NCBI RefSeq assembly: GCF_016593255.1
Contig: NZ_AP023212.1
Location: forward strand, 1,042,001 to 1,106,000
DNA length: 64,000 nt
Reading direction: 5' to 3'
From: Hydrogenimonas urashimensis
GTDB lineage: Bacteria > Campylobacterota > Campylobacteria > Campylobacterales > Hydrogenimonadaceae
The notes beneath the pieces are model-generated. The model was not told where the DNA came from and made no database searches. It saw nothing but the letters and a program-made list of their open reading frames with translations. The stretch's first letter is position 1; every line of letters begins with the position of its first letter. Made by a program: the position numbers and the translations under genes. Below, in pieces: positions 290 to 51,507 of the stretch.

Positions 290-534
290 GCGGATATTTT
301 TTTCGAAATACCCTAAAGCTTTTCAATTTTGTGCCGATACTCTTTCCGTAATGGGACAGTAGACACAAATTCCCGTCCACTGTTCAAGGTCGTTAACATT
401 AAGAAGCATTTTACCGCCATGCGGTTAAAATAGATATCAAGGTGGGTGGTTGGGATGCATAAATTACACAACAATACGCTATTTTTATGCACTTCTCTTT
501 TTTTTCCCGCCCTCAAGAGCCGAAGGGGACAAGA
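290..534. other. Intergenic region before the giant surface-protein gene
   Basis: About 245 bases without a supported gene. It is AT-rich and must hold the promoter of the large downstream operon. The best -10-like strings are TAAAAT near 425 and TACGCT near 475, neither with a convincing -35. A small minus-strand open frame here (313-516) has no recognisable features and is not called. Confidence 0.4.
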
Positions 535-3500
535 ATGAAGACAAAGAGTCTTTTAAAACAGATATTCTCACTGATTTTGGGTATATTATTCGTACAAACA
601 TGGGTGTACGGCGGAGTATCCGGTAAACCGGATATCGAAATCACCTCTTTGACGGACTCGCCAGACCCGGTATCGGCAGGCGGAGACATAACCTATACTG
701 TCAATATAAAAAATTCGAGCGCGGACGTTTCTGCCTTCAATGTTTATGTCGATTTCTCTTCCTCTTCCTCTCTTTCTCTTACCAAAATTTCAGGAAGCGG
801 CTGGAGCTGCTCCAGCAATCACTGCACTTACGCTTCACCTCTTCCCGCGGGTACATCGGCGACAACCCTGAAAGTCAAAAGAACAGCCCCCAACAGCGGC
901 GGAACCATCAATCTGACAGCCCACGCAGATTCCGACACCACAGACGGTGACACAAGCAACAATGTCAAAACCGTCACAACGACCGTAGAAGCCCCCAAAG
1001 AACCCAAACTGAAAATCACCAAAACAGCCAACACGACCGACATGAATGTCAACGATTCGGTCACATTCACACTCAAAGCCCAAAACACGGGGGATGCCAC
1101 TGCGACAGGAACGAAGATAACCGACACCGTTCCTTCCATTTTCGACATCACCTCTTACTCTTCGGGATGCTCGAAAAGCGGTCAAAAGGTGACATGCACC
1201 ATTGGCAACCTGAATGCGGGCGCAAGCAAGACATTCAGAATCTACGCCAAAGCAAAAGAGCCGGGCGATGCCACAAACACCGCCAAAATAACGGCTGACA
1301 ATGCCAGCAGCAAAACCAGCAGTGTCAGCCTGCATGTCAGAGGGGTCAAACTTCAGGCTAATACCGTGTCGGCGTACAGTGTCGCAAGTGGTGAAAAAAC
1401 CACGTTCAAATACCGCGTCAAAAACAACGGAGACGCAACAGCCCAAAACACCTATCTTTATATCGATCTCGATGATGCGTTCACCATCACGTCAAACGGC
1501 GGATGCACCACTCTAAGCGGGAAAAAACTCAAATGCGGTCCCTATACGCTCAATGCGGGAAGCTACTCACCCACAATAACAGTCGAAGCACGGGCACCGG
1601 AAGTAAGCAGCAGCCGTTCATACAAAACCGTTTTCAGTGCCCAAACCACTTCAGCGGGCAATCCTTCCGATATCTCTTCATCGAGATGGAAAACCATTTA
1701 TGCTGTCAATCTGTCGATTAGCAAAAACGTCAGTCCGACCGAAGTGGGTCCCGGAGACGACGCAACGTTCACCATTCGTGTCACCAACAAGACAGGGGCC
1801 ACGGTATCCGGCGTCAAGATGGAAGATACCCTTCCTTCCGGTTTTTCCATCAGTAGTCTCTCGCCTTCAGAATGCAGCAAAAGCGGACGCAAAGTCACTT
1901 GTAATTTTTCTTCGCTGAGCAACAATGCCCATAAAGATATCACAGTCCATGTCAAAGCTCCGACTTCATTGGGCACCTACACGAATACCGCAGAGACAAC
2001 CTCTACCCATGCAACCCGTTCATGGAGTGACGATGCGACATTGAGAGTCAGTGGTGCCCATCTTTCCGTTGACAAACGGGTTTCTCCCTCCTACGTTGCA
2101 CCGGGCGGCGAGGTCGTATATACGATTGAGGTCACGAACGACGGATTCGACACCGCACACAATGTTCTTGTCGATGACAGCAGTTTCCCCGCAGGTTTCA
2201 GTGTCACAAAAATCGAACCGGCCGGTTGTACACTCTCCTCCTGCAATCTTGGCGATATCGCTGTTAACCAGACCAAAACCATGAAAATTTGGGCAGATGC
2301 CGCTAGTTCTGCCGGCAATTACACCAATACCGCCGTGGCCGAGGACAATCAACACAACAGGGGACAGGACAGTGCCACCGTACATGTTCAAAATGTCGAT
2401 ATTCAGGCGATTCTTCAATGCACGGATTATGTCGCCATCAGTGGGAACTATGTCTGCTACGCTTATATCAGAGAGAGGAATGCTCCTGCCGTCACCAATG
2501 CCGAATTGACATTTTCACTTCCAAGTGACGTCAACCGTGCCTCTTTCAGGGGGTCGAAAATCGACAATATCGACAGTCGTTTTACCTGTTCGGTCAGCGG
2601 AAGAGACGTCCATTGCCAGATGAAGAGCGGCGAACAGATTTCCCAGGGTTACACACGAGTCGTACGCGTATTGATCAAAGCCTTCGATGCGGCGGTTTTT
2701 GATACAACAGGCTTCAATAAAAACGGTATTGTCCATAGTCTCGACGTTTCCACAACACTTTCGGACGGCAACAGTGGCAACAATCACGATGAAGAGACGA
2801 CGTGGGTACGGGGTGCCAATCCCTCCATCACCAAAACCGGCGATTCCGCCACCGGTCCAGGACATGAAATGACCTATACCATTCGCGTTCGAAACTGGCC
2901 GCGGGACAATGTCAACAATCAGACAAGACCAAGTACCACAGCGACCCACATCGAAATCACAGACCCTCTGCCGCTGGAAGTGGAGTTCGTCAGTGCATCG
3001 GGTTCGAACTGGACATGCCCCGCATCCATCCCGGGGAATCTTCTGACATGTACCTACGCCTCTTCGATCGCTCCCAATCACAGCGCGGACGATTTGCATA
3101 TCACCGTCAGGGTCAAAGATGACATATCGCTGGGTTCGAATATCGTCAATTCGATATTCGTTACAAACGATACACCCGAACTGAAAGCCAATCCCGATTT
3201 GACGGTTGACAATGAAGACAGCTGGACAACAACCGTTGAAGGCGCACATCTTTCAACTTCTGTGTCCAGTTCGCTCGATAGTGTCATCGAAACCAACAAA
3301 GTCGTTTTCGACTTCACCGTACGTAACGACGGTTACGCGCCAGCCGGCGAGGTCAATGCGACATTCGATTTCGACAGGCCCGATCTGATCGATTCCCTTT
3401 CGCTCCTTTCCGCACCCTCCTATTGCCGCATCGTCGACAAGTCTGTCGAGTGCAACACCTCCGAACTTGCGGACGGTGACGAGATTACAGCAGAAGTCGA

Positions 3501-6500
3501 AGCGACAACCGCCAATGTCGACAGCGACCAGGTAGTCACCGCAAGAGTGCAGGCGGACGCGAACAACACCGATCCAAGCAGCGCGGAAAAAAGTGTGACG
3601 ATCGTCGATTTCGCGACCTATGCCGAATGGCGAATGGACGACTGCCATATCAAATGGAAGCAGCGTACTGTCAAAGAGGAGAATGGACGTTTCCCCGGCA
3701 CAACAGAAAAAAAAGTCGGCAAAGTTTTAAAGGGTAAAGTCTGTTCGGCTATCAGAGTCAATAAAAACAACAGTGGTAACAACAAAATCAAAACCAGCCT
3801 CGACATCAACGATTTGGGAAGCGGCGGCACCATCATGTTCTGGTTCAAAAGTTTCGTCAAATGGGAAAAAGCTGATAATCAGAAACTTTTCGACTGTTCA
3901 ACGACCCACGGACACAAATATTATTATTTGTATTTGCATAAAGGCAGATTGAAATTTGCTTTTGAAGACTCTGCTGATGATGATTTTACTTACGAAACTT
4001 CGAACAAACTGACCTACGGTGCATGGAGTTGGCACCATATCGCACTGACATTCGATCAACACTCCCATCAAATCAAAATCTATGTCGACGGCAGCTTGAT
4101 AGCGGGTAGTTTGAACAAATCCTGGACGACGGACATCGCAGACGTGGGACCTCTTTATATCGGCGGCAATTCATCAACCTATGCCAAGAAAAAATCTGCC
4201 AACGGCGCTTTCGACGAATTCAAAGTTTTTGATAGTGTACTCGACGCCGCCACCATCCAGGATATATATCAAAACGAAGACAGTGGCAAAAATTTCAACG
4301 GCAGCGAAAGAGTCTGTCCCGCATGCGGCGCTGACGCACGCATAAAAACATTCAGCGCATCGCCAAACAAAATATATGCAGAGAATCCCTTCGACTATAC
4401 CATCAAAATACAAAACATCGATGTCTATCCCATTGAAGAGGTGAATCTGACCGTAGATATCGACAACAGGGCCGATGTGCTCGACATCAACTACACAAGC
4501 GACTGGAGCTGTTCATTTGACGGAACTTCTTCCCGTCTCTCCTGCTATTTCGATGCCGACGGCAACGAATCAGCCATGTTCAAACCATGGAAAACAAAAA
4601 CCATAACACTCAAAATGCGCGCTCCCAATGAAGTCATCACCTCCTCACCTCTTCTAAGCAGCGAAGCTGATATCGCAACTTCGCCTGTGGACGATTTCCC
4701 CGAGGACAATAGGAAAACGAAAAACGTAAAAGTATATCCGGTGGACATTTCCATCGCCAAAACAGTGGACAACGACGAGCCCAATCAGAACGAACCCTAT
4801 CTCTACACACTGAATATCAAAAACAACAGCGGCATGGCCAACCACATCAAAGTCGTGGACGAGATAGAGAGTACGCTGAACATCACATCCATCGCCAATG
4901 ACGATGCCAACTGGACATGCAATACGATAGGCCATACCATCGAATGCCAGCGCGATTCGCTACCAGCCGTCTATGACGGCAATATCTACATCATGGTCAC
5001 CCCGACTGTGGATAAACCGATACACAACGAAGCCAATGTCTCGACTACAACCGCAGAGACGAGATTGGGCAACAACCGAAGCAGCGTGGACGTCAATGTG
5101 CAGTCCTCCGTCGGGACAGGATGGGACAAATCGAAATTCAAAGATTTCACGCTGAGGAAAAACCGAACCTTCTACGGCGACCTTCTGGTTATCGGCAACA
5201 GCAACCTGGAGGGCAGCGGATCCAGTGGCGACAAGCTCGCCGATATCAATGCCACCTATGTTTCGGGCAACAAATCCAGTGCCAATCTCAACCTCGAATC
5301 CTATGAAAAAGTACAATTTGCACGACTTTACTGGACAGGACACTTGCATGGCGCAAAAGGAGATGCTTCGGACGAAGGAGAGGATGAAGGTTTCAAAACG
5401 ATCACTTTCTACACACCGGATGGAAACACGCATACTCTCACGGCCGACGACAACGACACCTATTTTTACTACTACAAAGATGCGGGCGACACCTACCGGC
5501 GCATCTATTCGGCCTCGGTCGACGTCACGGATATACTCAACGACGTCAACCAAAGCCGCGGAACCTATGGCGGAACCTACGCGGTGGGAGGTATAAAGGC
5601 CAATACCGGAAAAGATATCTTCATCAGAACACCGGTACTCGACAGTAACGGAACCATCAAGCCGGACAATATCAAATTCGGCCATTTCGCCGGATGGAAT
5701 CTCGTCGTCTTCTACGAGGTGGACCACCGTACACACAGGGAACAGGTTTACAAAAACATCAATATATTCGACGGATTTAGAAAACTGCTCCCGGCAAGCG
5801 TTGGTTACGAAAAACTTACCATACCTGTTAGCGGATTCATCACGCCCAAATTCGGCGACATCGACTCGAGACTTTCGCTGTTCGCAGCCGGCGGTGAGCG
5901 TAATGTCGAACTCGACAGTATCAGTATCGTCTCGAAAGAGAACAACGTTTCGTCGGAAGTCAAGATTTCCGATGCCCTCAACCCTGAAAACAATGTCCTA
6001 AACGGCACCATTTCCCGTGCGGGGTCCGATGTATCCGACAGAGTGCCAGACCAAGATTACAATATCGGCATCGACCTCGATCAATTCGATATCAGTTCGG
6101 ATTTTTCCATCAACAAAATCTATTTCGGCCATCTGCAGCAAGATACCAACATCACGCTCTCCGTCGGCAGACAGAAAGATGGCTCCTACGAAATTTTCGA
6201 TCAATCTTTCCCGACGGCCATCGGTATTTCGACCCAGATATACAACCCCGATTTCATCGACTCCTACAAAGAGTGTTTCGTCGAGGACAAACTGACAGGG
6301 GCATACAAATCCTGTTCGGACGTCAACATCTCAAGAGGCGGTGAAATCATTTACCGTATCACCATCGTCAACACAGGCGACGAAAAGGCGAGCAACGTCA
6401 TTATCGAGGACCCGTTGCCCAAAGAGGTCGATTTCAACATCTCGACAGCCGATCTGAAAGTTGTCACAAATACCAAACCTCTCTGTGCCGGACTCGACAC

Positions 6501-8931
6501 GAGTGCCGAAAGCATCAACGACTGTGCCCACCACCTCGAAACCCTCGGCGTCTTTGACCACAGGGTACTGACAGATGAGGGCAAAACCTACATCTCCAGC
6601 TATTTCGGAACCGATGTCAACGAAACGAACAACAGGCTATACGACGATGTATGGAACGCTTCGTTCAGCGATTACAACGTCACCACCGAAGGAAGCGGCG
6701 AAGAGGAACACACCAAACTGACGATCGACCTGAGCAACGAACTCAACCAAGGAGAGGGAGACGAATACGAAGGCTATTTCCCCGCCCTCAATGTCACGTG
6801 GATCGAATTCAAAGTCAAAGTCAACACGAGAGCGGTTTTGAACAAGACGTTCGAAAACATCGCCTACATCAATTTCACCAACCCCACCCTCGCCGCGTAT
6901 GGCTATCCCGACGCGACACAGCGGCAGGAGAGCGCCTCGGTCGAATCGCCGCCGGTCGTCTTCCAGTGGACACAACTGCAAGGAGACATACGTGACCCGG
7001 GCAGAATAAGCATGGGCACCAAAATCGTCAACCATCCTTTCGACCTGAACATCAGCATCGACGATTCCAACAGCACTTTCGCGACATTCGCCGCCAACTA
7101 CCCGGATGTCAACCTCACGGTCGCCGCCATCGCGCTGGTGGACAACAATCTGATTCCCCAGGGAGGCACCTGCGACTCCTACATGAGCATGGCCACGCTT
7201 GCCGGCTTCGACCGCGACCCGAGTACCACGACGCCCGACTTTGGCATCGTATCGAACGAGTATATCCCCATCGGAAGCGGCATGTACTGGGTCACCGACC
7301 GCAACATCACCTCCGCCATCGCCGCAAAAGATGTCGGCTTCTGTCTGCTTTTCAGAATGAGCTACAAGGACGGAACGGTGACCAAATACGCCGACGCGCC
7401 GGCATTCTACGGCCCCTTCGGCGATCACTTCGCCCTCAGGCCACAACGCATCGATTTCGATACGGGACTGCCCAAAAGCGGTGACTACTATGTCGTCAAA
7501 GCGGGGCAGACTTTCGCTTTGGACGCCAACGCCACCGACGGCATGACGGCACTTGGCACCCCGGGCTACACAACGGTACTTTCAGCGGGCGAACTCGAGG
7601 ATGGCAACACCTCCCTCGCGACCATCTCGATTTTCGACGAGAAGGGGTGCATCGACTACAAACTCTCCGATCCGACCGGCGTCAAAGTCCATCTCTACGA
7701 CTTCAATTTCACAAACGGAGACATGGCCGCCATACCCAACAACAAATTCGACGATGTCGGTATCGTCACGATACGGGTCAGGGATGTCAACTGGTCGGAG
7801 GTTGATGTGGCCAACGATGACTGCAACAGCTCCTCCGACGATGATCAGAACGGAAGTTTCGTCAGTTGCGCCGTCAAGGGCGAAGCGAAATTCATCTTCG
7901 TTCCCGACAAGATCGAGGTTCAGACTACCGTCAACAATCAGGGCAACGGTTTTACGTACATGGCCAACGATTTGGATGCAATGCATACGAATATCCATGC
8001 AAAACTGAGGTCTTTGAACCTGGAAGGCAACGTGACCGAAGCGTTCAAAAGCGGATGCTACGCCGATGACGTCAACCTCTCCATCGACGCCAATTTCACG
8101 TTCGCGAGCGCCGAAACCGTTCCCTACGTGCTCAATTGGAAGGTGGATGGCGAAACAACCATCAACACCCTCTCCATAGCGGCTGGCGGTGTGGCGAGCA
8201 TCGACTATGTGGTGGGTGAATCGAACTTTAGCAACGGTGAAGCCGACATCGATTTCCTCGTCAATGTTGCGCGAACGAAAACCCATGCCTATTATCCGCT
8301 CGACATGGACACCCTAAACGGCCGGACCTCGATCGACAACTATCTGGGGCGCGTGGACGTGCCCGAAAGCACGTCGCCGCTCGATGCGGACAATATCGCC
8401 AGATTCTGGTACGCCCGCCTGCATGCGCCCGATTATCGAAGCAGCACGACGACAATCGAGACGCCCATCTACATCGAAGTCTTCTGCAACGACGACAAAG
8501 CCGACTGTTCGCAGTTTGGCATGGCCGGTCTGCCCGAAAGTTCCGACGACGTCTTCTGGTGGGTCAACACGAACCACAGCGGCGCCCACCTTGGAGTCCT
8601 CTTCGACATGAACGCCACCCAGAAAAATCAGCTCGACCCGCTGATCAAAATCAATGGCGGAACCAACGTGGCGAACGACATCAACGCTTCGTTCGCCCAG
8701 GGCGTCTATGTCCCGACGGTCACTTACACGGGATCGTCCAAGCTCTACAGAACGCAGATCAATACACGCCCCTCCGAGTGGTTGAAATACAATAGGTTCT
8801 ACGCGGACGGACGGACGAAGTATCATGTCGAATTCAACCTGCCGGTCGATGAGTGGTCCGGCATCGGCCAGCGGGGTGAGACGGTCGAAACCAACGGCAG
8901 CCGCAAGAGCAACAGGAGACTCGAATGGTAA
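535..8931 (+). CDS. Giant secreted DUF11-repeat and LamG-domain protein, putative pilus-associated adhesin
   Basis: A 2798-residue exported protein. The start is ATG 535, preceded by an AAGGGG ribosome site; an in-frame ATG at 487 lacks one. MKTKSLLKQ plus a hydrophobic stretch gives a signal peptide. Eight DUF11-like immunoglobulin-type repeats follow (to about residue 1020), each with a 'tYtv.v.N.g' strand. Next come a LamG/concanavalin-like domain (about 1026-1260, containing WHHIALTFD and IYVDGSL) and two more DUF11 repeats. A region with ARLYWTGHL, VDVTDIL and GWNLVVFYE (about 1520-1900) resembles the DUF3344-type surface domain. One further DUF11-like unit precedes about 800 unrecognised residues. 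Ten repeats carry a close cysteine pair such as CSKSGRKVTC. No transmembrane anchor or sorting signal is evident at the C terminus. The stop overlaps the next pilin-like gene by seven bases, so the protein probably works with those pilins. A role in adhesion is inferred. Confidence 0.8.
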   Translation: MKTKSLLKQIFSLILGILFVQTWVYGGVSGKPDIEITSLTDSPDPVSAGGDITYTVNIKNSSADVSAFNVYVDFSSSSSLSLTKISGSGWSCSSNHCTYASPLPAGTSATTLKVKRTAPNSGGTINLTAHADSDTTDGDTSNNVKTVTTTVEAPKEPKLKITKTANTTDMNVNDSVTFTLKAQNTGDATATGTKITDTVPSIFDITSYSSGCSKSGQKVTCTIGNLNAGASKTFRIYAKAKEPGDATNTAKITADNASSKTSSVSLHVRGVKLQANTVSAYSVASGEKTTFKYRVKNNGDATAQNTYLYIDLDDAFTITSNGGCTTLSGKKLKCGPYTLNAGSYSPTITVEARAPEVSSSRSYKTVFSAQTTSAGNPSDISSSRWKTIYAVNLSISKNVSPTEVGPGDDATFTIRVTNKTGATVSGVKMEDTLPSGFSISSLSPSECSKSGRKVTCNFSSLSNNAHKDITVHVKAPTSLGTYTNTAETTSTHATRSWSDDATLRVSGAHLSVDKRVSPSYVAPGGEVVYTIEVTNDGFDTAHNVLVDDSSFPAGFSVTKIEPAGCTLSSCNLGDIAVNQTKTMKIWADAASSAGNYTNTAVAEDNQHNRGQDSATVHVQNVDIQAILQCTDYVAISGNYVCYAYIRERNAPAVTNAELTFSLPSDVNRASFRGSKIDNIDSRFTCSVSGRDVHCQMKSGEQISQGYTRVVRVLIKAFDAAVFDTTGFNKNGIVHSLDVSTTLSDGNSGNNHDEETTWVRGANPSITKTGDSATGPGHEMTYTIRVRNWPRDNVNNQTRPSTTATHIEITDPLPLEVEFVSASGSNWTCPASIPGNLLTCTYASSIAPNHSADDLHITVRVKDDISLGSNIVNSIFVTNDTPELKANPDLTVDNEDSWTTTVEGAHLSTSVSSSLDSVIETNKVVFDFTVRNDGYAPAGEVNATFDFDRPDLIDSLSLLSAPSYCRIVDKSVECNTSELADGDEITAEVEATTANVDSDQVVTARVQADANNTDPSSAEKSVTIVDFATYAEWRMDDCHIKWKQRTVKEENGRFPGTTEKKVGKVLKGKVCSAIRVNKNNSGNNKIKTSLDINDLGSGGTIMFWFKSFVKWEKADNQKLFDCSTTHGHKYYYLYLHKGRLKFAFEDSADDDFTYETSNKLTYGAWSWHHIALTFDQHSHQIKIYVDGSLIAGSLNKSWTTDIADVGPLYIGGNSSTYAKKKSANGAFDEFKVFDSVLDAATIQDIYQNEDSGKNFNGSERVCPACGADARIKTFSASPNKIYAENPFDYTIKIQNIDVYPIEEVNLTVDIDNRADVLDINYTSDWSCSFDGTSSRLSCYFDADGNESAMFKPWKTKTITLKMRAPNEVITSSPLLSSEADIATSPVDDFPEDNRKTKNVKVYPVDISIAKTVDNDEPNQNEPYLYTLNIKNNSGMANHIKVVDEIESTLNITSIANDDANWTCNTIGHTIECQRDSLPAVYDGNIYIMVTPTVDKPIHNEANVSTTTAETRLGNNRSSVDVNVQSSVGTGWDKSKFKDFTLRKNRTFYGDLLVIGNSNLEGSGSSGDKLADINATYVSGNKSSANLNLESYEKVQFARLYWTGHLHGAKGDASDEGEDEGFKTITFYTPDGNTHTLTADDNDTYFYYYKDAGDTYRRIYSASVDVTDILNDVNQSRGTYGGTYAVGGIKANTGKDIFIRTPVLDSNGTIKPDNIKFGHFAGWNLVVFYEVDHRTHREQVYKNINIFDGFRKLLPASVGYEKLTIPVSGFITPKFGDIDSRLSLFAAGGERNVELDSISIVSKENNVSSEVKISDALNPENNVLNGTISRAGSDVSDRVPDQDYNIGIDLDQFDISSDFSINKIYFGHLQQDTNITLSVGRQKDGSYEIFDQSFPTAIGISTQIYNPDFIDSYKECFVEDKLTGAYKSCSDVNISRGGEIIYRITIVNTGDEKASNVIIEDPLPKEVDFNISTADLKVVTNTKPLCAGLDTSAESINDCAHHLETLGVFDHRVLTDEGKTYISSYFGTDVNETNNRLYDDVWNASFSDYNVTTEGSGEEEHTKLTIDLSNELNQGEGDEYEGYFPALNVTWIEFKVKVNTRAVLNKTFENIAYINFTNPTLAAYGYPDATQRQESASVESPPVVFQWTQLQGDIRDPGRISMGTKIVNHPFDLNISIDDSNSTFATFAANYPDVNLTVAAIALVDNNLIPQGGTCDSYMSMATLAGFDRDPSTTTPDFGIVSNEYIPIGSGMYWVTDRNITSAIAAKDVGFCLLFRMSYKDGTVTKYADAPAFYGPFGDHFALRPQRIDFDTGLPKSGDYYVVKAGQTFALDANATDGMTALGTPGYTTVLSAGELEDGNTSLATISIFDEKGCIDYKLSDPTGVKVHLYDFNFTNGDMAAIPNNKFDDVGIVTIRVRDVNWSEVDVANDDCNSSSDDDQNGSFVSCAVKGEAKFIFVPDKIEVQTTVNNQGNGFTYMANDLDAMHTNIHAKLRSLNLEGNVTEAFKSGCYADDVNLSIDANFTFASAETVPYVLNWKVDGETTINTLSIAAGGVASIDYVVGESNFSNGEADIDFLVNVARTKTHAYYPLDMDTLNGRTSIDNYLGRVDVPESTSPLDADNIARFWYARLHAPDYRSSTTTIETPIYIEVFCNDDKADCSQFGMAGLPESSDDVFWWVNTNHSGAHLGVLFDMNATQKNQLDPLIKINGGTNVANDINASFAQGVYVPTVTYTGSSKLYRTQINTRPSEWLKYNRFYADGRTKYHVEFNLPVDEWSGIGQRGETVETNGSRKSNRRLEW

Positions 8932-9635
8932 AAAGCAGAAGGGGCTTCTCCTTCATCGAACTGCTCGTCTCCATCGTTGTCATCGGCATCGTCTTCATGT
9001 CGGTGCCCCTGATTTTGATGGAGACGGAGCGAAGCAGTGCGTTCTCGACGCAGCAGGAAGGAATCATGGCGGGGGTGACCTCGCTTGTCAACATACTGGG
9101 ATACCGCTGGGACGAAACGGATACCAACCAGACCCTCAACGGGGGATTCGCCAAAGTGTGCGATGTCACCCAGGGCGCCGCCGACCTCAACAGGACCTCC
9201 GGCACTTCCAACCGCCGCAAAGGCCATTTCAAAGGGGAGTACCGCAGAAAATTTTTCGATTACACCTACCTCAACGACCCGACTGTCAGCACTTTCGCCA
9301 CACTTCCGGCTTCGCTTGGAGCAGACAGTGACGACGGCGGTTTGGCGGACGATATCGACGACTTCTCCAACAGCAGCACCACCTTGACGGGGGGAGGAAT
9401 CCGCGACTACAAGTTCGACTATACGATCGGCACGAAGGTCTACTACGTCACGGACAATTTCGGCTACGACGTGAATACGACACTCAACGCGGACATCTCA
9501 AACACGAACATCAATCAGATGACCAACATCAAGATGATAGAGACGACCGTCACCAGCGATGAAGGCGTCATAAAACTCTACGCCTTCTCCTCCAATATCG
9601 GAGAGTACAAAATTTTGCACCGGACATTCGAATGA
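8925..9635 (+). CDS. Minor pilin-like protein, PilV-type
   Basis: A 236-residue type IV prepilin-like protein. It opens with a short basic leader and RRGFSFIELLVSIVVIGIV: a prepilin peptidase site (G before F), Glu at +5 and the hydrophobic assembly helix. The body is rich in Asp, Asn and Thr and has no recognised fold. The gene overlaps the giant DUF11/LamG gene by seven bases and the next pilin-like gene by four (ATGA), so the set is translationally coupled. By analogy with operons where minor pilins PilV, PilW and PilX sit beside the tip protein PilY1, it may help display the giant protein on a pilus or pseudopilus. It could instead be a T2SS minor pseudopilin, but it lies 36 kb from that locus. 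Confidence 0.8.
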   Translation: MVKSRRGFSFIELLVSIVVIGIVFMSVPLILMETERSSAFSTQQEGIMAGVTSLVNILGYRWDETDTNQTLNGGFAKVCDVTQGAADLNRTSGTSNRRKGHFKGEYRRKFFDYTYLNDPTVSTFATLPASLGADSDDGGLADDIDDFSNSSTTLTGGGIRDYKFDYTIGTKVYYVTDNFGYDVNTTLNADISNTNINQMTNIKMIETTVTSDEGVIKLYAFSSNIGEYKILHRTFE

Positions 9636-10537
9636 AAGCCATCAGACACGCCTTTACGATGATCGAACTGATCATGGTGATCCTCATATTCGGCATCATC
9701 GCGATGATAGGGGCCGATATTTTCGTCAAAATCTACGACAACTACATCATCGCCCGAACTATGAACACCCTACAGACCAAAACGGAACTGGCCCTAGAGC
9801 AGATCGCCAGGCGGCTGCAGTACCGCATCAAGGACAGTACGATCGCGCGAAAGGATTCCAACCTGAGCCAGTACAAGTTTCTGGGGGACGCGGACGAGAG
9901 TTACCATATCCTCGAGTGGATCGGGTATGCCGACGAAGCCCTGAAGGGGGAGTGGAACGGCACGATGAATGTACCGGGATGGAGCGGTTTCATCGATCTG
10001 GACGACAGCAACAAAACCCATGTCGCGACACCCGGGAGCCATCTGAGCTACGCCGACAACATCATCAAAACACTCTCCAACAACACTATCTCCCTTGCGA
10101 CGGCGGCCAGCGCCCCAGCCATCGTCATGGACGGCCATGTGGGGGATTACAAGGTCTCATCCTACGGCTGGCATCCCCATGCCGACCACAACTACACGTT
10201 TCCGGTTACAAAACAGGACGAGACGACACTCAATTTCGTGGACGGCACCACATCCAAGGAGATTTACGAGCATTACAAAATGGCGTGGACCGCCTACGCG
10301 CTCGTACCGAGCTGCCCGTCAGGCGTGACGGATGACTGCAACCTGAGCCTCTACTACAATTACCAGCCCTGGTATGCCGAAAGGTTCGACCAGGACGCCA
10401 ACAGCAGCCTGCTCATGGAGCATGTCTCGACATTCAAGTTTATCCAGATGGGAGATTCGATACGTTTGAAACTTTGCGTGGGGGAACACTTCTACGACAA
10501 AAACATCTCCTTCTGCAAAGAGAAGGTGGTATTCTGA
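9632..10537 (+). CDS. Minor pilin-like protein, PilW-type
   Basis: A 301-residue prepilin-like protein. The N terminus RHAFTMIELIMVILIFGII is a type III signal with Ala rather than Gly just before the cleaved F, Glu at +5 and a long hydrophobic helix. This Ala form recurs in several pseudopilins of the window. The remaining 270 residues are a soluble domain with many aromatic residues and late cysteines (SCPSGVTDDC, then KLCVGEHFYDKNISFC), which could form disulfides in the periplasm. The size fits PilW or GspJ-like minor pilins. It is coupled to its neighbours by ATGA upstream and TGATG downstream. The minor-pilin class is certain; the partner filament is inferred. Confidence 0.8.
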   Translation: MKAIRHAFTMIELIMVILIFGIIAMIGADIFVKIYDNYIIARTMNTLQTKTELALEQIARRLQYRIKDSTIARKDSNLSQYKFLGDADESYHILEWIGYADEALKGEWNGTMNVPGWSGFIDLDDSNKTHVATPGSHLSYADNIIKTLSNNTISLATAASAPAIVMDGHVGDYKVSSYGWHPHADHNYTFPVTKQDETTLNFVDGTTSKEIYEHYKMAWTAYALVPSCPSGVTDDCNLSLYYNYQPWYAERFDQDANSSLLMEHVSTFKFIQMGDSIRLKLCVGEHFYDKNISFCKEKVVF

Positions 10538-10965
10538 TGCGACGCGGTTTCACACTCCTTTCGGCGATATTTCTGATGGTGCTTGTGGCCACACTCATGG
10601 TGCTTGCGTACTCGCTTTCGGCGCAGACGAAGAAGCAGACGGGAGACATCTACATGCAGGAGCAGGCGCAGCTGCTCGCCAGGAGCGCGACCGAATTCGC
10701 TCTGCTGGCGGTATCGGGCCACGACAACACGGCCGACTGTATCGATCAAATCAATCTGCGCTACCCGCAGGGCTCTCCGGTCTACGATATCAACATGACA
10801 CTCTACTATATCGGCAACGGCCTGCCCTGTTCGCATATTCTCGCCAACGGCATCGCCACGGCGGAATCGAACGGGACCATACTCATCGACACGTCCGTCT
10901 CCTATACCATCCCCGATTCGAACGAAAAGGTCAGATTTTTCAGACGGACGATCCAGAAGCCTTAA
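10537..10965 (+). CDS. Minor pilin-like protein, PilX/GspK-type
   Basis: A 142-residue protein beginning MRRGFTLLSAIFLMVLVATL: a very short leader, Gly before F, then a hydrophobic helix without the usual Glu at +5. Lack of Glu5 is typical of the tip-most minor pilins PilX and GspK. The start is ATG 10537, which overlaps the preceding stop (TGATG); an upstream in-frame start would lie inside that gene and is rejected. Two cysteines (DCIDQIN and LPCSHI) may pair. It is the last gene of the operon and is followed by the promoter of hpf. It probably completes a PilV-PilW-PilX-like trio serving the giant surface protein. Confidence 0.75.
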   Translation: MRRGFTLLSAIFLMVLVATLMVLAYSLSAQTKKQTGDIYMQEQAQLLARSATEFALLAVSGHDNTADCIDQINLRYPQGSPVYDINMTLYYIGNGLPCSHILANGIATAESNGTILIDTSVSYTIPDSNEKVRFFRRTIQKP

Positions 10966-42144: not shown

Positions 42145-42198
42145 ATATTCCAAGTGTCCGATATTACCATCACACTGTTATCAATTCAAGGAGAATGT

Positions 42199-45100
42199 AT
42201 GCGAATCAAGTTTGGAAATATGAGCGTTGTTGCCAGTGCGCTGCTCACAAGTACCCTGCTGTTTACAGGCTGCGGCGGAGGCGGAGGCGGAAGCTCTGTC
42301 GATGTCACTCCCCAAAGCACCACCATTTCTGGAAAAGCGGTCGACGGCTACCTGCAAAAATCTCTGGTATGGCTCGACCTCGATGCCGACGGAGTCCTGG
42401 ACGAAGGGGAGCCTTCGGATATCTCCGACGAAAACGGCCAATTTCACCTGACCATTACGGAAGAGGTCAAAAACGATCCCAATTTCGCGAAAGCCCAGAT
42501 CGTCGCAAAAGGCGGTATCGACAAAGATACCGGCAAAAAATTCCCCGGAAAGATTATGGCGCCCAACACGGGCGAGGAGAAGATCAACCTATCTCCTGTC
42601 ACCACGCTGGTCGCCAAACTTGTCGAAAAAGGGGAAGATGTCAAGAAGGCCGAACGGAAAGTCAAAGTCTCTTTGGGCATTTCCGAAAATGTCGATCTCT
42701 TCGAAGATCCGAAAAAACTTGAAGAAAGCGGTCAAAAAGAGTTGATCGCAGCGGCGCTCTCTTTGCAAAAGAGTATCGAAATGATCGCGGCGGCCGCCAG
42801 CGGAGACGATGAAGAAAAAGCCGCAAAACTGCAGGAAGAACTCTACGATGCGTTTGCCTCGGTGCTTGCCGAAGAGAACACAGAGGGATCGGACGAAGCC
42901 TCCGGTGAGGAGACCTCTTCAAAACAAGGCGTAGAGGGGCTTCTTGATGCGGCCAAAGACAAGAATGCCTTGCCCGAAGATATCGAAGACGAACATATTG
43001 ACGATGCAAAGAGTTTGGCCAAAGATGTCAAAGAGGCGGTCGAAAGCGGCAGGGATTCCGGTGACGTGGAAAAAGCGGCTGCCCTCTACACGGCCGATAC
43101 GATCTCAGGAACGGTCACCTCTTTTGATGATCTTATTTCAAAAACCAATGAACTAGAAAAAAAATTCCTCGTCTATCGGCTCAAAGATCTGAACCTCGAA
43201 GATGCCGATGCTTTGGCGGATGCCCTGCTTGCGGCCGGATTCGATGCCGACAAACTGATCGATCCGAGCGACGAAACACTGGAAGCACTGAAAAACAACG
43301 AAAAATTCAAAAGAGTCTATGCCGCGCTTCTTAAAGAGAAAAAAGAAGTAGAGGATGAGAGCGAAGAAGCATCGACACCCCAGGGAAGCGTCGCCGCGAC
43401 CATCAAACCGGGCTTTGTTTTCTATGAAGTCGATGCGGACGAAGAGGACGGGAGAATCGAGATCGAATTTCAGACCCACTCGCTCAATGCCGACGGCACG
43501 GTGGGAGAGAGCGAAAAAGCCTTCGTCAACGGCCATTGGATCACGGATGAGGAACACAGCGACGACAGCGACTATGTCCTCACATCCGACGGCTGGGTGA
43601 AGGAGAACGGCAACGACAGGTATGTCATCAATGACGACGGGTCCGTTACGATAAACAATAGGTTCAAAGTCGCCATCGCCAAAGAGAAGGATATCAGCGG
43701 CACCTACATCGTACCGCTGGGCGATACGGTCGCCGAGATCGAGATGCCGGCAGGAGCGAAAGAGTACCTCAATACCTATGAGACGATAGCGAAGGGGTAT
43801 TACATCTGGGACAAAGAGCGTGCCTGGGGCATCGAAGGGCAGGAATACTACGCGAATCTCGGAGAGTTCATAGCGCATCAGTGCGGCGAACACTGGTTCG
43901 ACGGCAATCACGAAGGCGGTGTCGCATTCGCCGGCACACAAAACGAAGACGGATCCTGGTCCTGCGACGCAAGCGCCACGAGCGGTACGCTTTTTGAAGT
44001 AAAAGGCGGCGACGAAACGCATCCGGCGACAATCGTCTCCGAAGATGCCGGAACATGGAAGATCGAAACCGTCAACGGTGTCAAGATTCTGGTGATCCAT
44101 CCGAAAAATCCGGAATATGCCGACGAAGATGGTGAGACGATCTTCACGGAATTTGATGGAGCGGTCTGGCGTGGAGAGGCCGAACCCGCAGGTCGGCACG
44201 AAACCTGGCACGCCTACAACAAAACCGCCTACGAGGCGATCGAACAGTATGTGGAAAATCTGGCATCGTCGCAAACGGATGAGAGTGAGAATACAAACAA
44301 AGAGAGCGGTAGCGGCATCGATGCCAAAACCCTCTTCGCCGGCAAAACGGTCTATACTCCGATTTCCGGGCAAAACGGCACTCTGGAACGATGGGTTTTC
44401 AGCAATGATTTCAGCAGCGTGACATGGACGGAAATCGAAGGTGGCAACGAGAGCGCGACAGAAAGCATTACCGATGTCGAGGGCGCCTCTTTCGTCACAC
44501 ACGACGGTGAAGAGGAAAGCCGCATCACCATCACCAAGGTAAGCGATGGATATTTCGAATTCACGGTCAATGGCACAATACAGGAGCGCGGCTACTTTGA
44601 CGAAACGCTCGCCAGAGCCAATCTTCTGGGTGAAGGCGGCAACGAGGGGTCGGCGGAAGAGGGTTCGGGCACATCCGGGAACCCTGACGATGGCGATCAT
44701 CTCACCGACGAAGAGAAAGCGCTTCTAAACGCCACCCCGATTCTGAAACTCTCGGCGGGATACACCTTCTACGAATTTGACGCAGAAGACGAAGACGGGG
44801 GAATTGAAATCGGCACCGGCGTCTATACGCTCGGAAGCGACAACAAAATCTCCGTTACGGAACGCCGATACGAAGGGGGTCAATGGATCGAGGATGACGA
44901 AAACGACGATCTGGTGCTAACGGCAGCCGGTTGGGCCCCTGAGACCAACACACCTGCCTACCGGATCAACGAAGATGGCAGCATCGTCGTAGACGGAGCG
45001 GAAAAGATCGCGGTCGTCAAAGAGACGGATATTTCAGGAGAGTATACCTACAGAACCGAAGATGGCCAGAGTGTCACCGTCACGATGCCCGCCGGATCGA

Positions 45101-45618
45101 AAGAATACAAGAACAGCTATGAAAAAGTGGCGCCCCAGTACTATCTGTGGGAGAAGAAACGGACCCACGGCAATATCGAAGGCCAGGAATATTACACCTC
45201 TTTCGGTGAATTCATTGAAAACCAGTGCGGTGACCGCTGGTTCGCGGGTGACGAGCATGGCGGCATAGCGTTCGCCGGAACCCAAGACAACGATGGGCAC
45301 TACGTTTGTGACCCCAATGCCAAGAGCGGAAAACTTTTTGCCGTACAAGGTGGCGACGAAACGCATCCGTCGACTGTGGTTTCGGAAGATGCCGGATCGT
45401 GGGAGATCAAAAATGTCAACGGAACCGAAATTCTGTTCATCCATCCGAACAATCCCGACTATCAGGATAGAGAGGAAGAGAGAATTTTCAGCGTCTACAA
45501 CGGCACTCTCTGGAAAGGGTCGTACGAAAAAGCCGGAATCAAGGATATCTGGACATCCTACAACCAAACGGCGTTCAACGCACTAAAAAGTGCGGCCGAA
45601 GGGGGAGATTTCGAATAG
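42199..45618 (+). CDS. Large acidic lipoprotein with duplicated novel domain
   Basis: A 1139-residue lipoprotein. The start is ATG 42199 with AAGGAG upstream. The lipobox LLFTGC is followed by a six-glycine tract. Next come a carboxypeptidase-regulatory-like segment (ISGKAVDGYLQKSLVWLDLD, in parts) and a long acidic helical region (about 100-400). The C-terminal part has two homologous units of roughly 290 residues (about 415-700 and 850-1135). Shared blocks are FYEVDADEEDG/FYEFDAEDEDG, IEGQEYY, GVAFAGTQ/GIAFAGTQ and GGDETHP. A shorter, different domain (TLFAGKTVYTPISGQNG) lies between. No known family is recognised for the duplicated unit. The acidic composition suggests calcium binding or a halophilic surface. 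It is monocistronic, next to the T2SS locus, which could place it on the surface. Confidence 0.8.
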   Translation: MRIKFGNMSVVASALLTSTLLFTGCGGGGGGSSVDVTPQSTTISGKAVDGYLQKSLVWLDLDADGVLDEGEPSDISDENGQFHLTITEEVKNDPNFAKAQIVAKGGIDKDTGKKFPGKIMAPNTGEEKINLSPVTTLVAKLVEKGEDVKKAERKVKVSLGISENVDLFEDPKKLEESGQKELIAAALSLQKSIEMIAAAASGDDEEKAAKLQEELYDAFASVLAEENTEGSDEASGEETSSKQGVEGLLDAAKDKNALPEDIEDEHIDDAKSLAKDVKEAVESGRDSGDVEKAAALYTADTISGTVTSFDDLISKTNELEKKFLVYRLKDLNLEDADALADALLAAGFDADKLIDPSDETLEALKNNEKFKRVYAALLKEKKEVEDESEEASTPQGSVAATIKPGFVFYEVDADEEDGRIEIEFQTHSLNADGTVGESEKAFVNGHWITDEEHSDDSDYVLTSDGWVKENGNDRYVINDDGSVTINNRFKVAIAKEKDISGTYIVPLGDTVAEIEMPAGAKEYLNTYETIAKGYYIWDKERAWGIEGQEYYANLGEFIAHQCGEHWFDGNHEGGVAFAGTQNEDGSWSCDASATSGTLFEVKGGDETHPATIVSEDAGTWKIETVNGVKILVIHPKNPEYADEDGETIFTEFDGAVWRGEAEPAGRHETWHAYNKTAYEAIEQYVENLASSQTDESENTNKESGSGIDAKTLFAGKTVYTPISGQNGTLERWVFSNDFSSVTWTEIEGGNESATESITDVEGASFVTHDGEEESRITITKVSDGYFEFTVNGTIQERGYFDETLARANLLGEGGNEGSAEEGSGTSGNPDDGDHLTDEEKALLNATPILKLSAGYTFYEFDAEDEDGGIEIGTGVYTLGSDNKISVTERRYEGGQWIEDDENDDLVLTAAGWAPETNTPAYRINEDGSIVVDGAEKIAVVKETDISGEYTYRTEDGQSVTVTMPAGSKEYKNSYEKVAPQYYLWEKKRTHGNIEGQEYYTSFGEFIENQCGDRWFAGDEHGGIAFAGTQDNDGHYVCDPNAKSGKLFAVQGGDETHPSTVVSEDAGSWEIKNVNGTEILFIHPNNPDYQDREEERIFSVYNGTLWKGSYEKAGIKDIWTSYNQTAFNALKSAAEGGDFE

Positions 45619-46897: not shown

Positions 46898-47406
46898 TCT
46901 GGGTCAAACGCGCGGGCATCGCCATTGTCTCCCTCGTGCTCTGGCTCGCACTGGCTGCCGCTTTGGTCTCCAAGGAGCGCCTCTGCAACGCGGTAATCAA
47001 CAGTGTCGCCCATCAGGAAAACATAACCCTCTGCTACGATGGGCGAACCACAACGTCCACGGGATGCACGATGCGCTACGTGCATCTTCTCTTCGCCCAC
47101 TCCGCCGTCGCGAAGATCAAAACCTTCTCGGCGACACCGTGGCGCATCACCGCGGAAGGGATCCGGCTGGAGGGAATGGCCGCCGACGCATGGCCGCCTC
47201 GCATCAAATCTTTCATACTTTCGCCTTGGAGCGGGCGCATCCACGCCGAGGGGGATTTCGGCATTCTTGATGGCACCTTCTCTGTGGCCAAACGGAGGGT
47301 GGCCCTGCAACTGACACCCTCTTCGATCATGCGGCGGCAGTACCGTTCGACACTTCGCATGTTCAAACAGAAAAACGGAAAGTTCGTCTATGAAACGGCG
47401 TTTTGA
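46894..47406 (+). CDS. Type II secretion GspN-like protein
   Basis: A 170-residue protein with one N-terminal membrane helix (RAGIAIVSLVLWLALAAALV) and a mostly beta periplasmic part. It has repeated patterns such as GIRLEGMAADAWPPRIKSF and GRIHAEGDFGILDGTFSVAKRR that recall GspN/AsmA-like strands. GspN is optional in T2SS. The start is GTG 46894 (GTGA with the gspM stop). It could also be an unrelated accessory protein, but its place between M and C is the usual one for GspN. Confidence 0.6.
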   Translation: MIWVKRAGIAIVSLVLWLALAAALVSKERLCNAVINSVAHQENITLCYDGRTTTSTGCTMRYVHLLFAHSAVAKIKTFSATPWRITAEGIRLEGMAADAWPPRIKSFILSPWSGRIHAEGDFGILDGTFSVAKRRVALQLTPSSIMRRQYRSTLRMFKQKNGKFVYETAF

Positions 47407-48211
47407 CAAACTTCTGCCGGCAGCGGTATGGCTGGGCATTTTTTTGTTCGGTGCCAAACTGGGTGCGCTGGTGGCGGAGATGTTTCTGCCACCGCTTCCG
47501 CAGCTTGAATGCCAAAGCGCCCTTTCGCATCCGAAGGAGCGCTACCCTTTCGCCGAAGCCTTTGGGCTCAAGAGCTCATCCGCCCGCCCAAAACCCTCTT
47601 CCCGTCCTGCGCCGAAAGTCTCTTTGAGGGGGTATCAGCTGACGATGACGGCGATCGGCGAACCGAGCATGGCCATCATTGTCCACCAGCGAAAAAGCAG
47701 GCTGCTCACCGTCGGAGAGACGATCGACGGCTTCAGACTCACGGAAGTCTATACCGACCGGGTCAAACTCGTCAAAAACGGCCAGAGTTACTGGCTGACG
47801 ATGAAAAAATCGAAATCGTCCATTCGCACGAGACCCCGCCCCTCCGTCCGCGGGAGCAGACCCTCCGCCTACACGGAACAGATCCGGCACGAGGGCGACA
47901 CCTATTATGTCCCCCGCGAGCTGCTCGAAGAGATGCACGACATCAAAAAAATCTTCAAATATATCTCGCTCAAGCCGATTTACAGGAACAACAAGATGGT
48001 CGGTTTCGGTATCGCGAAAGTGAAAAAAGGCTCCGTTTTTGATAAAATGGGTCTACGTAAACGTGATATCATCGAAAAGATTGACGGCAGCCCGCTGACC
48101 AGTGAGACGGAAGCGTTCAAATATTTCAACAAAATCAATGAATTGAGTTCACTCTCTTTGACGATCAAACGGGGAAGCGAGCACAAGGAGCTGCATTATG
48201 AGATTTTTTAA
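47390..48211 (+). CDS. gspC: Type II secretion GspC-like protein with PDZ domain
   Basis: A 273-residue bitopic protein: one transmembrane helix (about 10-30), a Pro-rich linker, a homology region (VSLRGYQLTMTAIGEPSMAII, in parts, to about 140) that in GspC binds the N0 domain of the secretin, and a C-terminal PDZ domain (about 190-270, GFGIAKVKKGSVFDKMGLRKRDIIEKIDG). The PDZ domain selects substrates in classical systems. It overlaps GspN by 17 bases and the secretin by 14. Confidence 0.85.
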   Translation: MKRRFDKLLPAAVWLGIFLFGAKLGALVAEMFLPPLPQLECQSALSHPKERYPFAEAFGLKSSSARPKPSSRPAPKVSLRGYQLTMTAIGEPSMAIIVHQRKSRLLTVGETIDGFRLTEVYTDRVKLVKNGQSYWLTMKKSKSSIRTRPRPSVRGSRPSAYTEQIRHEGDTYYVPRELLEEMHDIKKIFKYISLKPIYRNNKMVGFGIAKVKKGSVFDKMGLRKRDIIEKIDGSPLTSETEAFKYFNKINELSSLSLTIKRGSEHKELHYEIF

Positions 48212-50033
48212 ATATGTTTTATTGATGTTACTTTTGATGCCGGCTGTCGCATCGGCCGAGAAAATCACGATCAATTTCAACAACACCCCCATCAAGGATG
48301 TCATACGCTTCGTCGCGAAAGAGACCCACAACAACATTTTGATGAGCGACAAAATCAGCGGTACCGTCAATTTCGTCTCGGAAGAGCCCATCGAGAAGGA
48401 TGAGCTCATCCCTCTGTTGACCCAGATTCTGCAAAACCGGGGATACACGCTGATCAACGGCAACAACGGCTATTTGATGGTAACTCGCGCGGCCAACGCG
48501 AAAAAGCTGGCCAGCCCCTACGAAAACGCGGAAGCGGGCATGGTCACGAAAATCATACGGGTCCACTACGTCAAAGCGAGCGACGCGGTCCAGAAGCTCC
48601 GGTATCTCAGCAGCCAGTTCGCCTCGGTCACTTTCGACAACAAGAAAAATGTCATCATCATGACCGATTATCCCAAACACATAAAAAATTTCGAAAAGAC
48701 GCTTCGCAAAATCGATCAGCCGATGAAGAAGGAGATACGTTTCGTCTCGCTGGACAACGCCGACGCGACATCGGCCATCAAGGAACTCAATACCATTTTC
48801 AAGGCGCTGAGTACCACATTCCGATTCCCCGTGACACTGAGCGCCGATGCCAAGAGCAACAAAATCGTCGTTATCGCCGATGCCCACGACATTGCGAAAG
48901 CGACTCAGATTGTCAGGCGTTTCGACAGCCAGAACAGAGCCAAAGAGGTGATGAGCGACGTCATTTTCCTCAACAATGCCGAAGCGGCCGCGACGGTCAA
49001 GATTCTGACGGGTCTGATGAAAAGTTTCGACAAGGAGACCCAGGCCCACGTATCGGTCCAGGCCAAGGAAGATATCAACGCCATCGCCATCACCGGCACA
49101 CCCCAGGCCGTTAAACTCATCACCAAGGTCATCAAGAAGCTCGACATCGAGCAGCAGCAGGTCTACGTCAAGGCCCATATCTACGAAATAAGCCAGCGTA
49201 AAATGGAAAGTCTGGGAATCAAGTGGGGTGCCGTCGCCGGAGGCATCACCGGAAACGTCCTGCTGACGGGACAGCTTCAGATGGGCGGCAGCGTTTTCAC
49301 CCTTCCCGATATTCTTCGCGGCGCCCTGAATCTTGATGAAATCGATGCCAATGTCGCGGTCGGCGCCATCATCGACCTGATGAAGCAAAACGGTGCCGTC
49401 AACGTGATCAGCGAACCCAACATCCTCTGCATCAACAACAAAAAATCATCCGTCTACATCGGTAAGACCATCTCGATTCTCACCAGCCAGTCGACGGGAG
49501 ACCAGACCACATCGACCACCCGAAACACCTACTCCCGGGAAGATATCGGTCTGACACTCGAGGTAAAACCGCAGATCGCCAGCGACAACAAAGTCCTGAT
49601 GGAAGTGAAAACAAAACTCGAGGACATCGACCAGTCGAGCACCAAAGTCGCCGACCGGCCCACCACCTTCAAGCGGGAAGTCCAGACCGTCGCGATCGTC
49701 AGAGACGGTGAAAACGTCATCATCGGCGGCCTTTTGAAAGACTATTACTCCAAAGGAGTGACGAAAGTGCCCCTATTGGGGGACCTGCCGATCATCGGAT
49801 CGATCTTCACATCGAAAAATGATATCAAGGACCAGATCAACGTCATCATTGTTCTGACACCCTATATCGTCAAAGACAGCCAGTCGCTGGCCGAAATCCA
49901 GATGAAAATCGCCAAAACCGAAGAGCTCAAAGCCGACCTGGCCAAAGTCCTCGAGAAGCGGCTCAAAGAGCGCAAAGCCACGTTCGAGCGCGATGAAAAC
50001 GAAAGTGTTCCGACCGATGTTTTCGACCGTTAA
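48198..50033 (+). CDS. gspD: Type II secretion secretin GspD
   Basis: A 611-residue outer-membrane secretin with a signal peptide (MRFFKYVLLMLLLMPAVASA). N0-N3 ring domains occupy about 20-310 (ITINFNNTPIKDVIRFVAKE at the start; TKIIRVHYVKASDA; FLNNAEAAATVKILTGL). The conserved secretin core begins near EQQQVYVKAHIYEISQRKMES and includes GAVNVISEPNILCINNKKS and GKTISI; VPLLGDLPIIGSIFTS is the diagnostic end segment. It forms the outer-membrane channel. No pilotin (GspS) gene is seen nearby. Confidence 0.95.
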   Translation: MRFFKYVLLMLLLMPAVASAEKITINFNNTPIKDVIRFVAKETHNNILMSDKISGTVNFVSEEPIEKDELIPLLTQILQNRGYTLINGNNGYLMVTRAANAKKLASPYENAEAGMVTKIIRVHYVKASDAVQKLRYLSSQFASVTFDNKKNVIIMTDYPKHIKNFEKTLRKIDQPMKKEIRFVSLDNADATSAIKELNTIFKALSTTFRFPVTLSADAKSNKIVVIADAHDIAKATQIVRRFDSQNRAKEVMSDVIFLNNAEAAATVKILTGLMKSFDKETQAHVSVQAKEDINAIAITGTPQAVKLITKVIKKLDIEQQQVYVKAHIYEISQRKMESLGIKWGAVAGGITGNVLLTGQLQMGGSVFTLPDILRGALNLDEIDANVAVGAIIDLMKQNGAVNVISEPNILCINNKKSSVYIGKTISILTSQSTGDQTTSTTRNTYSREDIGLTLEVKPQIASDNKVLMEVKTKLEDIDQSSTKVADRPTTFKREVQTVAIVRDGENVIIGGLLKDYYSKGVTKVPLLGDLPIIGSIFTSKNDIKDQINVIIVLTPYIVKDSQSLAEIQMKIAKTEELKADLAKVLEKRLKERKATFERDENESVPTDVFDR

Positions 50034-51507
50034 AAATCTCGATCTGCCGGCATTTTCGGAGATACCCAACCTCGATTTCTATCTGAAAAACGGCCTGCTA
50101 TTTGGCATCTACGAAGAGAAACCCCATGCCTGCATTCGTGAAAACCCCGACGCCAACATGCTCAACGCCCTCTCCCACCTGGGCGGAAAATATCCCCTGC
50201 TGGTACTCGATGAAGAGAGTTACGACAAACTGAAAAACAGATTCCTGGAGGCGCGAAGCGAAGAGGGTATCGGAGAGGTCGAAGGGTTCGAAACGCCGGA
50301 GGAAATCGAAAATTTCCTGCAGAACGAGGATCTGCTCAACAGTGAAAACTCCGCGCCGATCATCCGCTACGTCAACTCCCTGTTCGTCCAGGCGGTCAAA
50401 AGACGCGCGACCGATATTCACATCGAAACTTTCGAAAAGGAGGGGGATGTCCGCTTCCGTATCGACGGCGTGCTCAACAAGATCGCGACACTGAAAAGAG
50501 GGGCGATCGAATCGATCATCAACCGCATCAAGGTCATCTCAAATCTCGACATTTCCGAAACACGCATCCCCCAGGACGGCCGAACGAAGGTCACCATCGC
50601 CGGCTCGGGTGTGGATGTGAGGGTTTCGATTCTGCCGACCTACTACGGCGAGAAGGTGGTCATGCGACTTCTGATGAAGGGCGAATCGATCCCGTCGCTG
50701 CACAATCTCGGCTTCTCTGTTGAAATCTACAACAAACTCAAGTCACTGCTCAAACACAGTTACGGCATGATTTTGATCACCGGTCCCACCGGAAGCGGCA
50801 AATCGACGACGCTCCACTCCTTTCTCAAAGAGATCGATCACGAGCACTTCAATATCGTCACGATCGAGAACCCGGTGGAATACAATGCGCCGGGCGTCAA
50901 CCAGATCCAGGTCAACGAAAAGGTCAATCTCACCTTCTCCGAAGCGCTGCGGTCCATACTTCGGCAGGATCCCGATGTCATCATGGTCGGGGAGATGCGG
51001 GACAAGGAGACGGCGAAAATCGCCACCCAGGCGGCGATGACGGGCCATCTGCTTCTTTCGACACTCCATACCAACAGCGCCGTGGCGGCAATTCCCCGGC
51101 TTTTCGACATGGGCATCGACCCCTTTCTCGTCCGATCCACGCTCATCGGGATTCTGGCCCAGCGGCTGGTGCGCAAACTCTGCCCCTACTGCAAGGTCGC
51201 CTATGCACCGAGCGAAGACGACATCGAGTATTTCTATCTCGAAAGCGACACGAAGGTCTACGGCCCAAAAGGGTGTAAAAAATGCGGCTTCACCGGGTAT
51301 CGCGGACGACGGGCGATCGGCGAGATCATCCTCGTCGACGATGCATTCGGCGCAAAGATAAAGTACGGCGCCGACGAGCAGACCCTTCGGAACTATCTGA
51401 TCGAAGAGACCGATTTCAGACCGATGTTCGAAGAGCTCAGAAGCATGGTCATCAGCGGTGAAACGAGTATTTCGGAAGCCATCCGCATCGGAGTCAAAGG
51501 GGTATGA
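49993..51507 (+). CDS. gspE: Type II secretion ATPase GspE
   Basis: A 504-residue ATPase that powers pseudopilus assembly. Visible motifs are Walker A GPTGSGKSTTLHSFL, the Asp box around TIENPVEY, Walker B PDVIMVGEMRDKETA, the His box TGHLLLSTLHTNSA, and a C-terminal zinc-binding tetra-Cys region (CPYCKV and GCKKCGFTGYRGRR). The N-terminal part (1-130) binds GspL. The start at ATG 49993 overlaps gspD by 41 bases; ATG 50017 is possible, and neither has a good ribosome site, so coupling to gspD is likely. Confidence 0.95.
   Translation: MKTKVFRPMFSTVKNLDLPAFSEIPNLDFYLKNGLLFGIYEEKPHACIRENPDANMLNALSHLGGKYPLLVLDEESYDKLKNRFLEARSEEGIGEVEGFETPEEIENFLQNEDLLNSENSAPIIRYVNSLFVQAVKRRATDIHIETFEKEGDVRFRIDGVLNKIATLKRGAIESIINRIKVISNLDISETRIPQDGRTKVTIAGSGVDVRVSILPTYYGEKVVMRLLMKGESIPSLHNLGFSVEIYNKLKSLLKHSYGMILITGPTGSGKSTTLHSFLKEIDHEHFNIVTIENPVEYNAPGVNQIQVNEKVNLTFSEALRSILRQDPDVIMVGEMRDKETAKIATQAAMTGHLLLSTLHTNSAVAAIPRLFDMGIDPFLVRSTLIGILAQRLVRKLCPYCKVAYAPSEDDIEYFYLESDTKVYGPKGCKKCGFTGYRGRRAIGEIILVDDAFGAKIKYGADEQTLRNYLIEETDFRPMFEELRSMVISGETSISEAIRIGVKGV

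Follow-up and report, generated by a model that had tools for sequence, protein, structure and literature searches.

The window analyzed here, a 64,000-nucleotide stretch of the Hydrogenimonas urashimensis genome (contig NZ_AP023212.1, positions 1,042,001 to 1,106,000), carries a cassette of four genes for a giant exported protein and three minor pilins. Judged by profile comparison, it is a cassette of the MshQ-MshD-MshO-MshP type, with its kinship to the MSHA pilus and not to PilY1. The best explanation of our results, which we consider probable, is that the minor pilins of the cassette display the giant at the tip of a pilus. The features of the cassette are as follows:

535..8931, + strand: giant exported protein, putative MshQ-like tip protein with a DUF11 stalk (2798 aa, 305 kDa, pI 4.8)
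535..615, + strand: Sec-type signal peptide, end approximate (MKTKSLLKQIFSLILGILFVQTWVYGG; the sole hydrophobic segment of the giant)
631..3597, + strand: array of DUF11 Ig-like domains (PF01345 matches)
631-978, 1009-1308, 1360-1647, 1711-2010, 2062-2385, 2824-3186 and, weak, 3280-3597, + strand: DUF11 copies within the array
3775..4260 (aa 1081-1242), + strand: LamG/concanavalin A-like lectin domain (PF13385, Laminin_G_3; one copy, 2.7e-17)
4744-5094 and 6307-6486, + strand: two more DUF11 copies past the array (PF01345)
7435..8856, + strand: C-terminal domains akin to DUF6701/MshQ, predicted to be tandem beta sandwiches
8851..8928, + strand: conserved C-terminal tail ending in N-R-R-L-E-W, proposed docking element (by conservation; pLDDT <50 over most of it)
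8925..9635, + strand: pilin 1, MshD-like (I/V type), Glu5 present
9632..10537, + strand: pilin 2, MshO-like, predicted GspJ/XcpW fold, Glu5 present
10537..10965 (ATG at 10537), + strand: pilin 3, MshP-like (K/X type), without Glu5

The open reading frame of the giant spans 487-8931, and the ATG at 535, right after AAGGGGAC, gives the 2798-residue product. Its N-terminus is Sec-like and no membrane anchor is visible, the best 19-residue segment beyond the N-terminus scoring 1.24 on the Kyte-Doolittle scale. The four genes overlap successively by 7, 4, and 1 bases. The sequence-only reading had described an exported giant of this length without a visible anchor, coupled to three prepilin-like genes by these overlaps, and the open reading frames and hydropathy bear it out in full. 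Pfam recognizes DUF11 in nine stretches of the giant (9.7e-91). Its end (aa 2239-2798) was modelled as beta sandwiches with a mean pLDDT of 81.7; the closest structural neighbor of this model is the adhesin FdeC (Z 10.0) and many Ig-like chains match as well, which we read only as a sign of predicted tandem beta sandwiches. A sequence search of the PDB with the C-terminal profile of the giant found no relatives. Elsewhere in the window, an open reading frame of 1154 residues (42154-45618) begins like a lipoprotein and is rich in Gly there (CGGGGGG).

Pilins 1 and 2 have a prepilin motif with Glu5, which is also present in all of their homologues (31/31 and 32/32, respectively). As the earlier reading had noted, the last pilin lacks this residue: position 5 of mature pilin 3 is Ser, and Glu occurs there in none of 31 homologues. 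This is the Glu5 pattern of a GspI-J-K type tip complex, in which the capping pilin is without Glu5 and the other two have it. The model of pilin 2 (pLDDT 90.5) matches the XcpV/XcpW (GspI/GspJ) minor pseudopilin entries with Z scores of 10.5-11.2; the next score is 4.9, so that these entries are the sole ones above 5 among the matches listed. With Foldseek alone, pilin 2 had no significant match; it was a second aligner that singled out XcpW. A GspJ (XcpW) fold is thus predicted for pilin 2 from its model. Sequence searches of the PDB with the profiles of pilins 1 and 2 matched the N-terminal helix only. The trio had previously been likened to PilV, PilW, and PilX. That these are minor pilins stands, but the specific identity does not: against the PilV model the trio reached 15.6 bits (cut-off 52.2), the PilW model matched none of its members, and among 31 homologues of pilin 3 a single one matched PilX_N, at 0.021 and not over the cut-off. 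Because no model was reached over its cut-off, we rejected a sequence-based assignment of the trio to PilV/PilW/PilX.

The giant had likewise been proposed as an analogue of PilY1, a view that we abandon in favor of kinship with MshQ (DUF6701). Neither Pfam nor NCBIfam gave a match to the PilC/PilY1 C-terminal beta-propeller domain in the giant, and we rejected membership of that family on this ground. When the C-termini of stand-alone giants (38 sequences) were aligned with those of MSHA-linked giants, hhalign returned 99.9% (E 8e-37), and 5 of the 38 relatives match DUF6701 (PF20419) directly (best 1.3e-23). The window giant has no Pfam match to DUF6701; since it falls below the cut-off, we call it MshQ-like, a distant homologue and not a curated member. 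In the MSHA operon of Aeromonas caviae, DUF6701 covers the whole of the open reading frame that follows mshP and directly precedes mreB (6.3e-99), and the giant C-terminus matches this MshQ with 94.4% (9e-8) by profile comparison. The corresponding values for the pilins are 97.0% (pilin 1-MshD), 95.6% (pilin 2-MshO), and 88.0% (pilin 3-MshP); these counterparts come from one Aeromonas operon, and the N-terminal helix that pilins share accounts for part of the pilin signal, but the pairing is a specific one, each of the four profiles pairing best with its own MSHA counterpart. Plasmid sequences, searched for further DUF6701 relatives, yielded none.

The function of MshQ is unknown (PMC9815625), and our literature search found no paper on DUF6701 or on the Trp-tail motif described below. 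Because the giant C-terminus resembles DUF6701/MshQ and the trio resembles MshD/O/P, the cassette is a divergent form of an existing, uncharacterised MSHA component. As in Vibrio and Aeromonas, a large exported non-pilin with a DUF6701-type C-terminus accompanies three minor pilins, of which the last has no Glu5, in a genome with an MSHA-type machine. Unlike in the MSHA operon, where the mshQ gene comes last, the giant gene is first, and the cassette lies away from the machinery (MshI-L-M-N-E-G); the window-type giants further differ from MshQ in their DUF11 array, in an invariant C-terminal Trp tail, and in that several giants may occur per trio.

The cassette recurs widely. In a set of 200 genomes from the order, 88 (35 of 70 genera) have a counterpart of the last 535 residues of the giant and 146 match the pilin 2 profile; a pilin 3 scan of GTDB contigs yielded 63 loci, in Hydrogenimonas, Sulfurospirillum, Sulfurimonas, Sulfuricurvum, Sulfurovum, Nitratiruptor, Nautiliaceae, and others. 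Across 40 stretches, the giant gene is as a rule followed by those for pilins 1, 2, and 3, in this order and with overlaps; such a coupled order recurring across many genera is far beyond chance. Conservation in relatives had been named beforehand as a test, and the giant is directly upstream in 73 of 79 testable Campylobacterota trios. The gene hpf follows 72 of 86 trios, as it does in the window, and fliW and proC are often found upstream. The position of hpf places most trios in one ancestral locus, and the trio locus is old and inherited mostly vertically. Of the suggestion that a recurring cassette would be a new adhesin-display system, the recurrence is upheld and the novelty is not: the system is not wholly new but a variant of the MSHA MshD-O-P-Q module. 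The new points are the invariant Trp tail and the existence of orphan giants.

Six trios have no adjacent giant. Directly upstream of two trios without a giant lies a gene for an LVIVD-repeat-like protein (L128:1-924 and L130:7204-8238, the latter lipoprotein-like), possibly an alternative partner. In a Nautiliaceae locus (L165:7208-9000), fliW, proC, the trio, and hpf are in the usual order with no giant between proC and pilin 1, reflecting either loss or ancestral absence.

Trp is the last residue in all 41 complete stand-alone giants of our first set and in 103 of 103 distinct stand-alone giants collected with a profile from which the last 70 residues had been removed. The consensus of the tail in stand-alone giants is N-R-R-[ILM]-[ED]-W, and the conservation of the last six residues ranks 9th among 495 six-residue segments. 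MSHA-linked paralogues end in FR and the Aeromonas MshQ in LH, both without the Trp tail. We considered whether the Trp is forced by an ATGG overlap with the next start codon. An overlap of the Trp codon with the following ATG is present in 14 of the 41 giants but absent from 27, and all 26 orphan giants without a downstream pilin gene also end in Trp. This rules out the overlap as the cause and indicates that the signal lies in the protein. In the AlphaFold model of the giant monomer the tail is unstructured (pLDDT <50); being conserved yet disordered on its own, it is best explained as a docking peptide. The C-terminal strand of PilY1 has been modelled with AlphaFold-Multimer as an added strand on PilX (PMC11046646), and by analogy we infer that the tail docks on the trio. 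Pilin 3 would fit the place of the cap in these published models.

The 26 orphans, together with the six giant-less trios, could also mean that the giants are secreted freely or belong to a surface layer or matrix, that only operon economy links them to the trio, and that the pilins serve the pilus alone. We regard this as very unlikely, as the orphans retain the C-terminal domains along with the Trp, giants directly precede nearly all testable trios, and in another phylum, too, MshQ is encoded next to these pilins. An aromatic residue at the C-terminus is a classical feature of PDZ protease ligands and of outer-membrane protein signals. The motif might accordingly be read by such a C-terminus reader (a periplasmic PDZ protease or chaperone, or the BAM complex) and not by the pilins, and the tail is indeed free in the monomer model. 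This reading appears unlikely: position -5 is Arg or Lys in 33 of 41 giants, unlike a beta-barrel signal, the giant end is modelled as beta sandwiches and no barrel, and the PilY1 model is a direct precedent for docking of a tail to a pilin (PMC11046646).

The genome of H. urashimensis (2.30 Mb, one contig) holds a second copy of pilin 1, which led to a paralogous cassette (L030). Its giant (1634 residues) combines DUF6701 with an H-type lectin domain and three copies of LamG, and shares LamG (8e-15) and a C-terminal stretch (1e-12) with the window giant. Its trio is homologous in order to the window trio (25-32% identity) and is followed by a fourth pilin. Downstream of this pilin come the L030 machinery genes: one that is T2SS-M/PilO-like and those for a secretin nearest to MshL (222 bits, below the cut-off of 250), an MshM-type AAA ATPase, a TPR protein, an ATPase bearing an MshEN domain, and a platform protein of the GspF/PilC type. 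Only L030, L067, and L069 have the cassette inside an MSHA-type machinery operon; the window cassette stands alone. Within the L030 giant gene (L030:3865-8769; G000:C1:1738865-1743769), two LamG copies share 183 identical consecutive residues and are 99.8% identical at the DNA level, the product of a very recent intragenic duplication or conversion.

A second MSHA-type machine (L105) has the core T4P secretin, which scores 255.4 and thus above the MshL cut-off of 250.2; it shares 47%, 29%, and 34% identity with L030 in MshE, MshM, and MshL, respectively. Machines of the L105 type, with the same MSHA-like gene order, are also found in G172 and G103 next to their T4P ATPases. One genome thus holds two machines for pili of the MSHA type; an earlier account restricts MSHA pili to a few Proteobacteria (PMC10191384). 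We infer that the stand-alone cassette is used by the core MSHA-type pilus (L105 type).

The window also contains a complete T2SS operon, 40 kb from the cassette (47390-55866), in the order C-D-E-F-G-H-I-J-K with many overlapping genes and a GspD over its cut-off. The trio might therefore be T2SS minor pseudopilins and the giant a dedicated secreted substrate recognized by its C-terminal tail, a motif that a PDZ-bearing GspC-like protein could read; moreover, the HIJK sets of T2SS and T4P can replace one another in piliation (PMC10191384). The window T2SS, however, already has its own G-H-I-J-K, and the paralogous cassette lies within an MSHA-type operon. Furthermore, no GspE orthologue was found in five single-contig carriers of the cassette (G172, G194, G139, G078, and G103), and hence the T2SS is not required for the cassette. 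We therefore consider a T2SS role highly improbable. The best matches to the window GspE in those carriers lie at the PilB/MshE (T4P ATPase) locus (~44-46% identity); as the link between cassette and T4P ATPase was judged by hand, without phylogenetic correction, it is supportive only.

The cassette shares traits with other known systems. Like PilY1/PilC with PilV-PilW-PilX, it encodes a large modular protein with minor pilins, and the giants resemble PilY1 in their variable N-terminal modules, which are adhesive in PilY1; the beta sandwiches at the C-terminus set the window giant apart. PilB and PilC of Streptococcus sanguinis present lectin-type and other binding modules at a pilus tip, as we propose here, but fused to the pilin, whereas in the window the binding part would be a separate protein. 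With the T2SS GspI-J-K the trio shares the predicted fold of pilin 2 and a Glu5-less last pilin with a weak GspK match, but it forms a stand-alone locus with a partner giant, also in genomes without a GspE orthologue.

We propose that the four genes serve to build the tip of a type IV pilus of the MSHA type. The trio would form the priming complex, with the Glu5-less pilin 3 as its cap. The giant would be exported to the periplasm by Sec, dock on the trio complex via its C-terminal beta-sandwich domains and the NRR-[ILM]-[ED]-W tail, and pass out through an MshL-type secretin on the tip of the pilus as it grows, where the LamG domain and the DUF11 stalk would act as a reach-extending, sugar- or surface-binding tip. 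The tip location, the tail docking, the adhesive function, and the assembling machine are deduced here from genes and models.

In some genomes (such as G175, G069, G131, and G095, most such genomes being fragmented), giants occur alone or in tandem with one stand-alone trio per genome, from which it would follow that one trio can serve several giants. The N-terminal modules vary across the family (DUF11, Calx-beta, PA14, beta-helix, SdrD_B) and the Trp tail is found in all; differing N-terminal parts on a constant tail suggest exchangeable tips. We tentatively put forward, as somewhat short of probable, that one trio takes any of several giants through the common Trp-ending docking domain, like a socket accepting different plugs, and that the cell can swap tips, which would then differ in their DUF11, LamG, Calx-beta, PA14, or beta-helix modules.

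These results place the MshQ-type module in an ancestral locus of the Campylobacterota and give MshQ a concrete role to test, that of a non-pilin tip protein. The terminal Trp offers a single-residue handle for testing how the tip protein is attached. Should a single trio be shared by orphan giants, exchanging tips would be a way to vary what the pilus binds.
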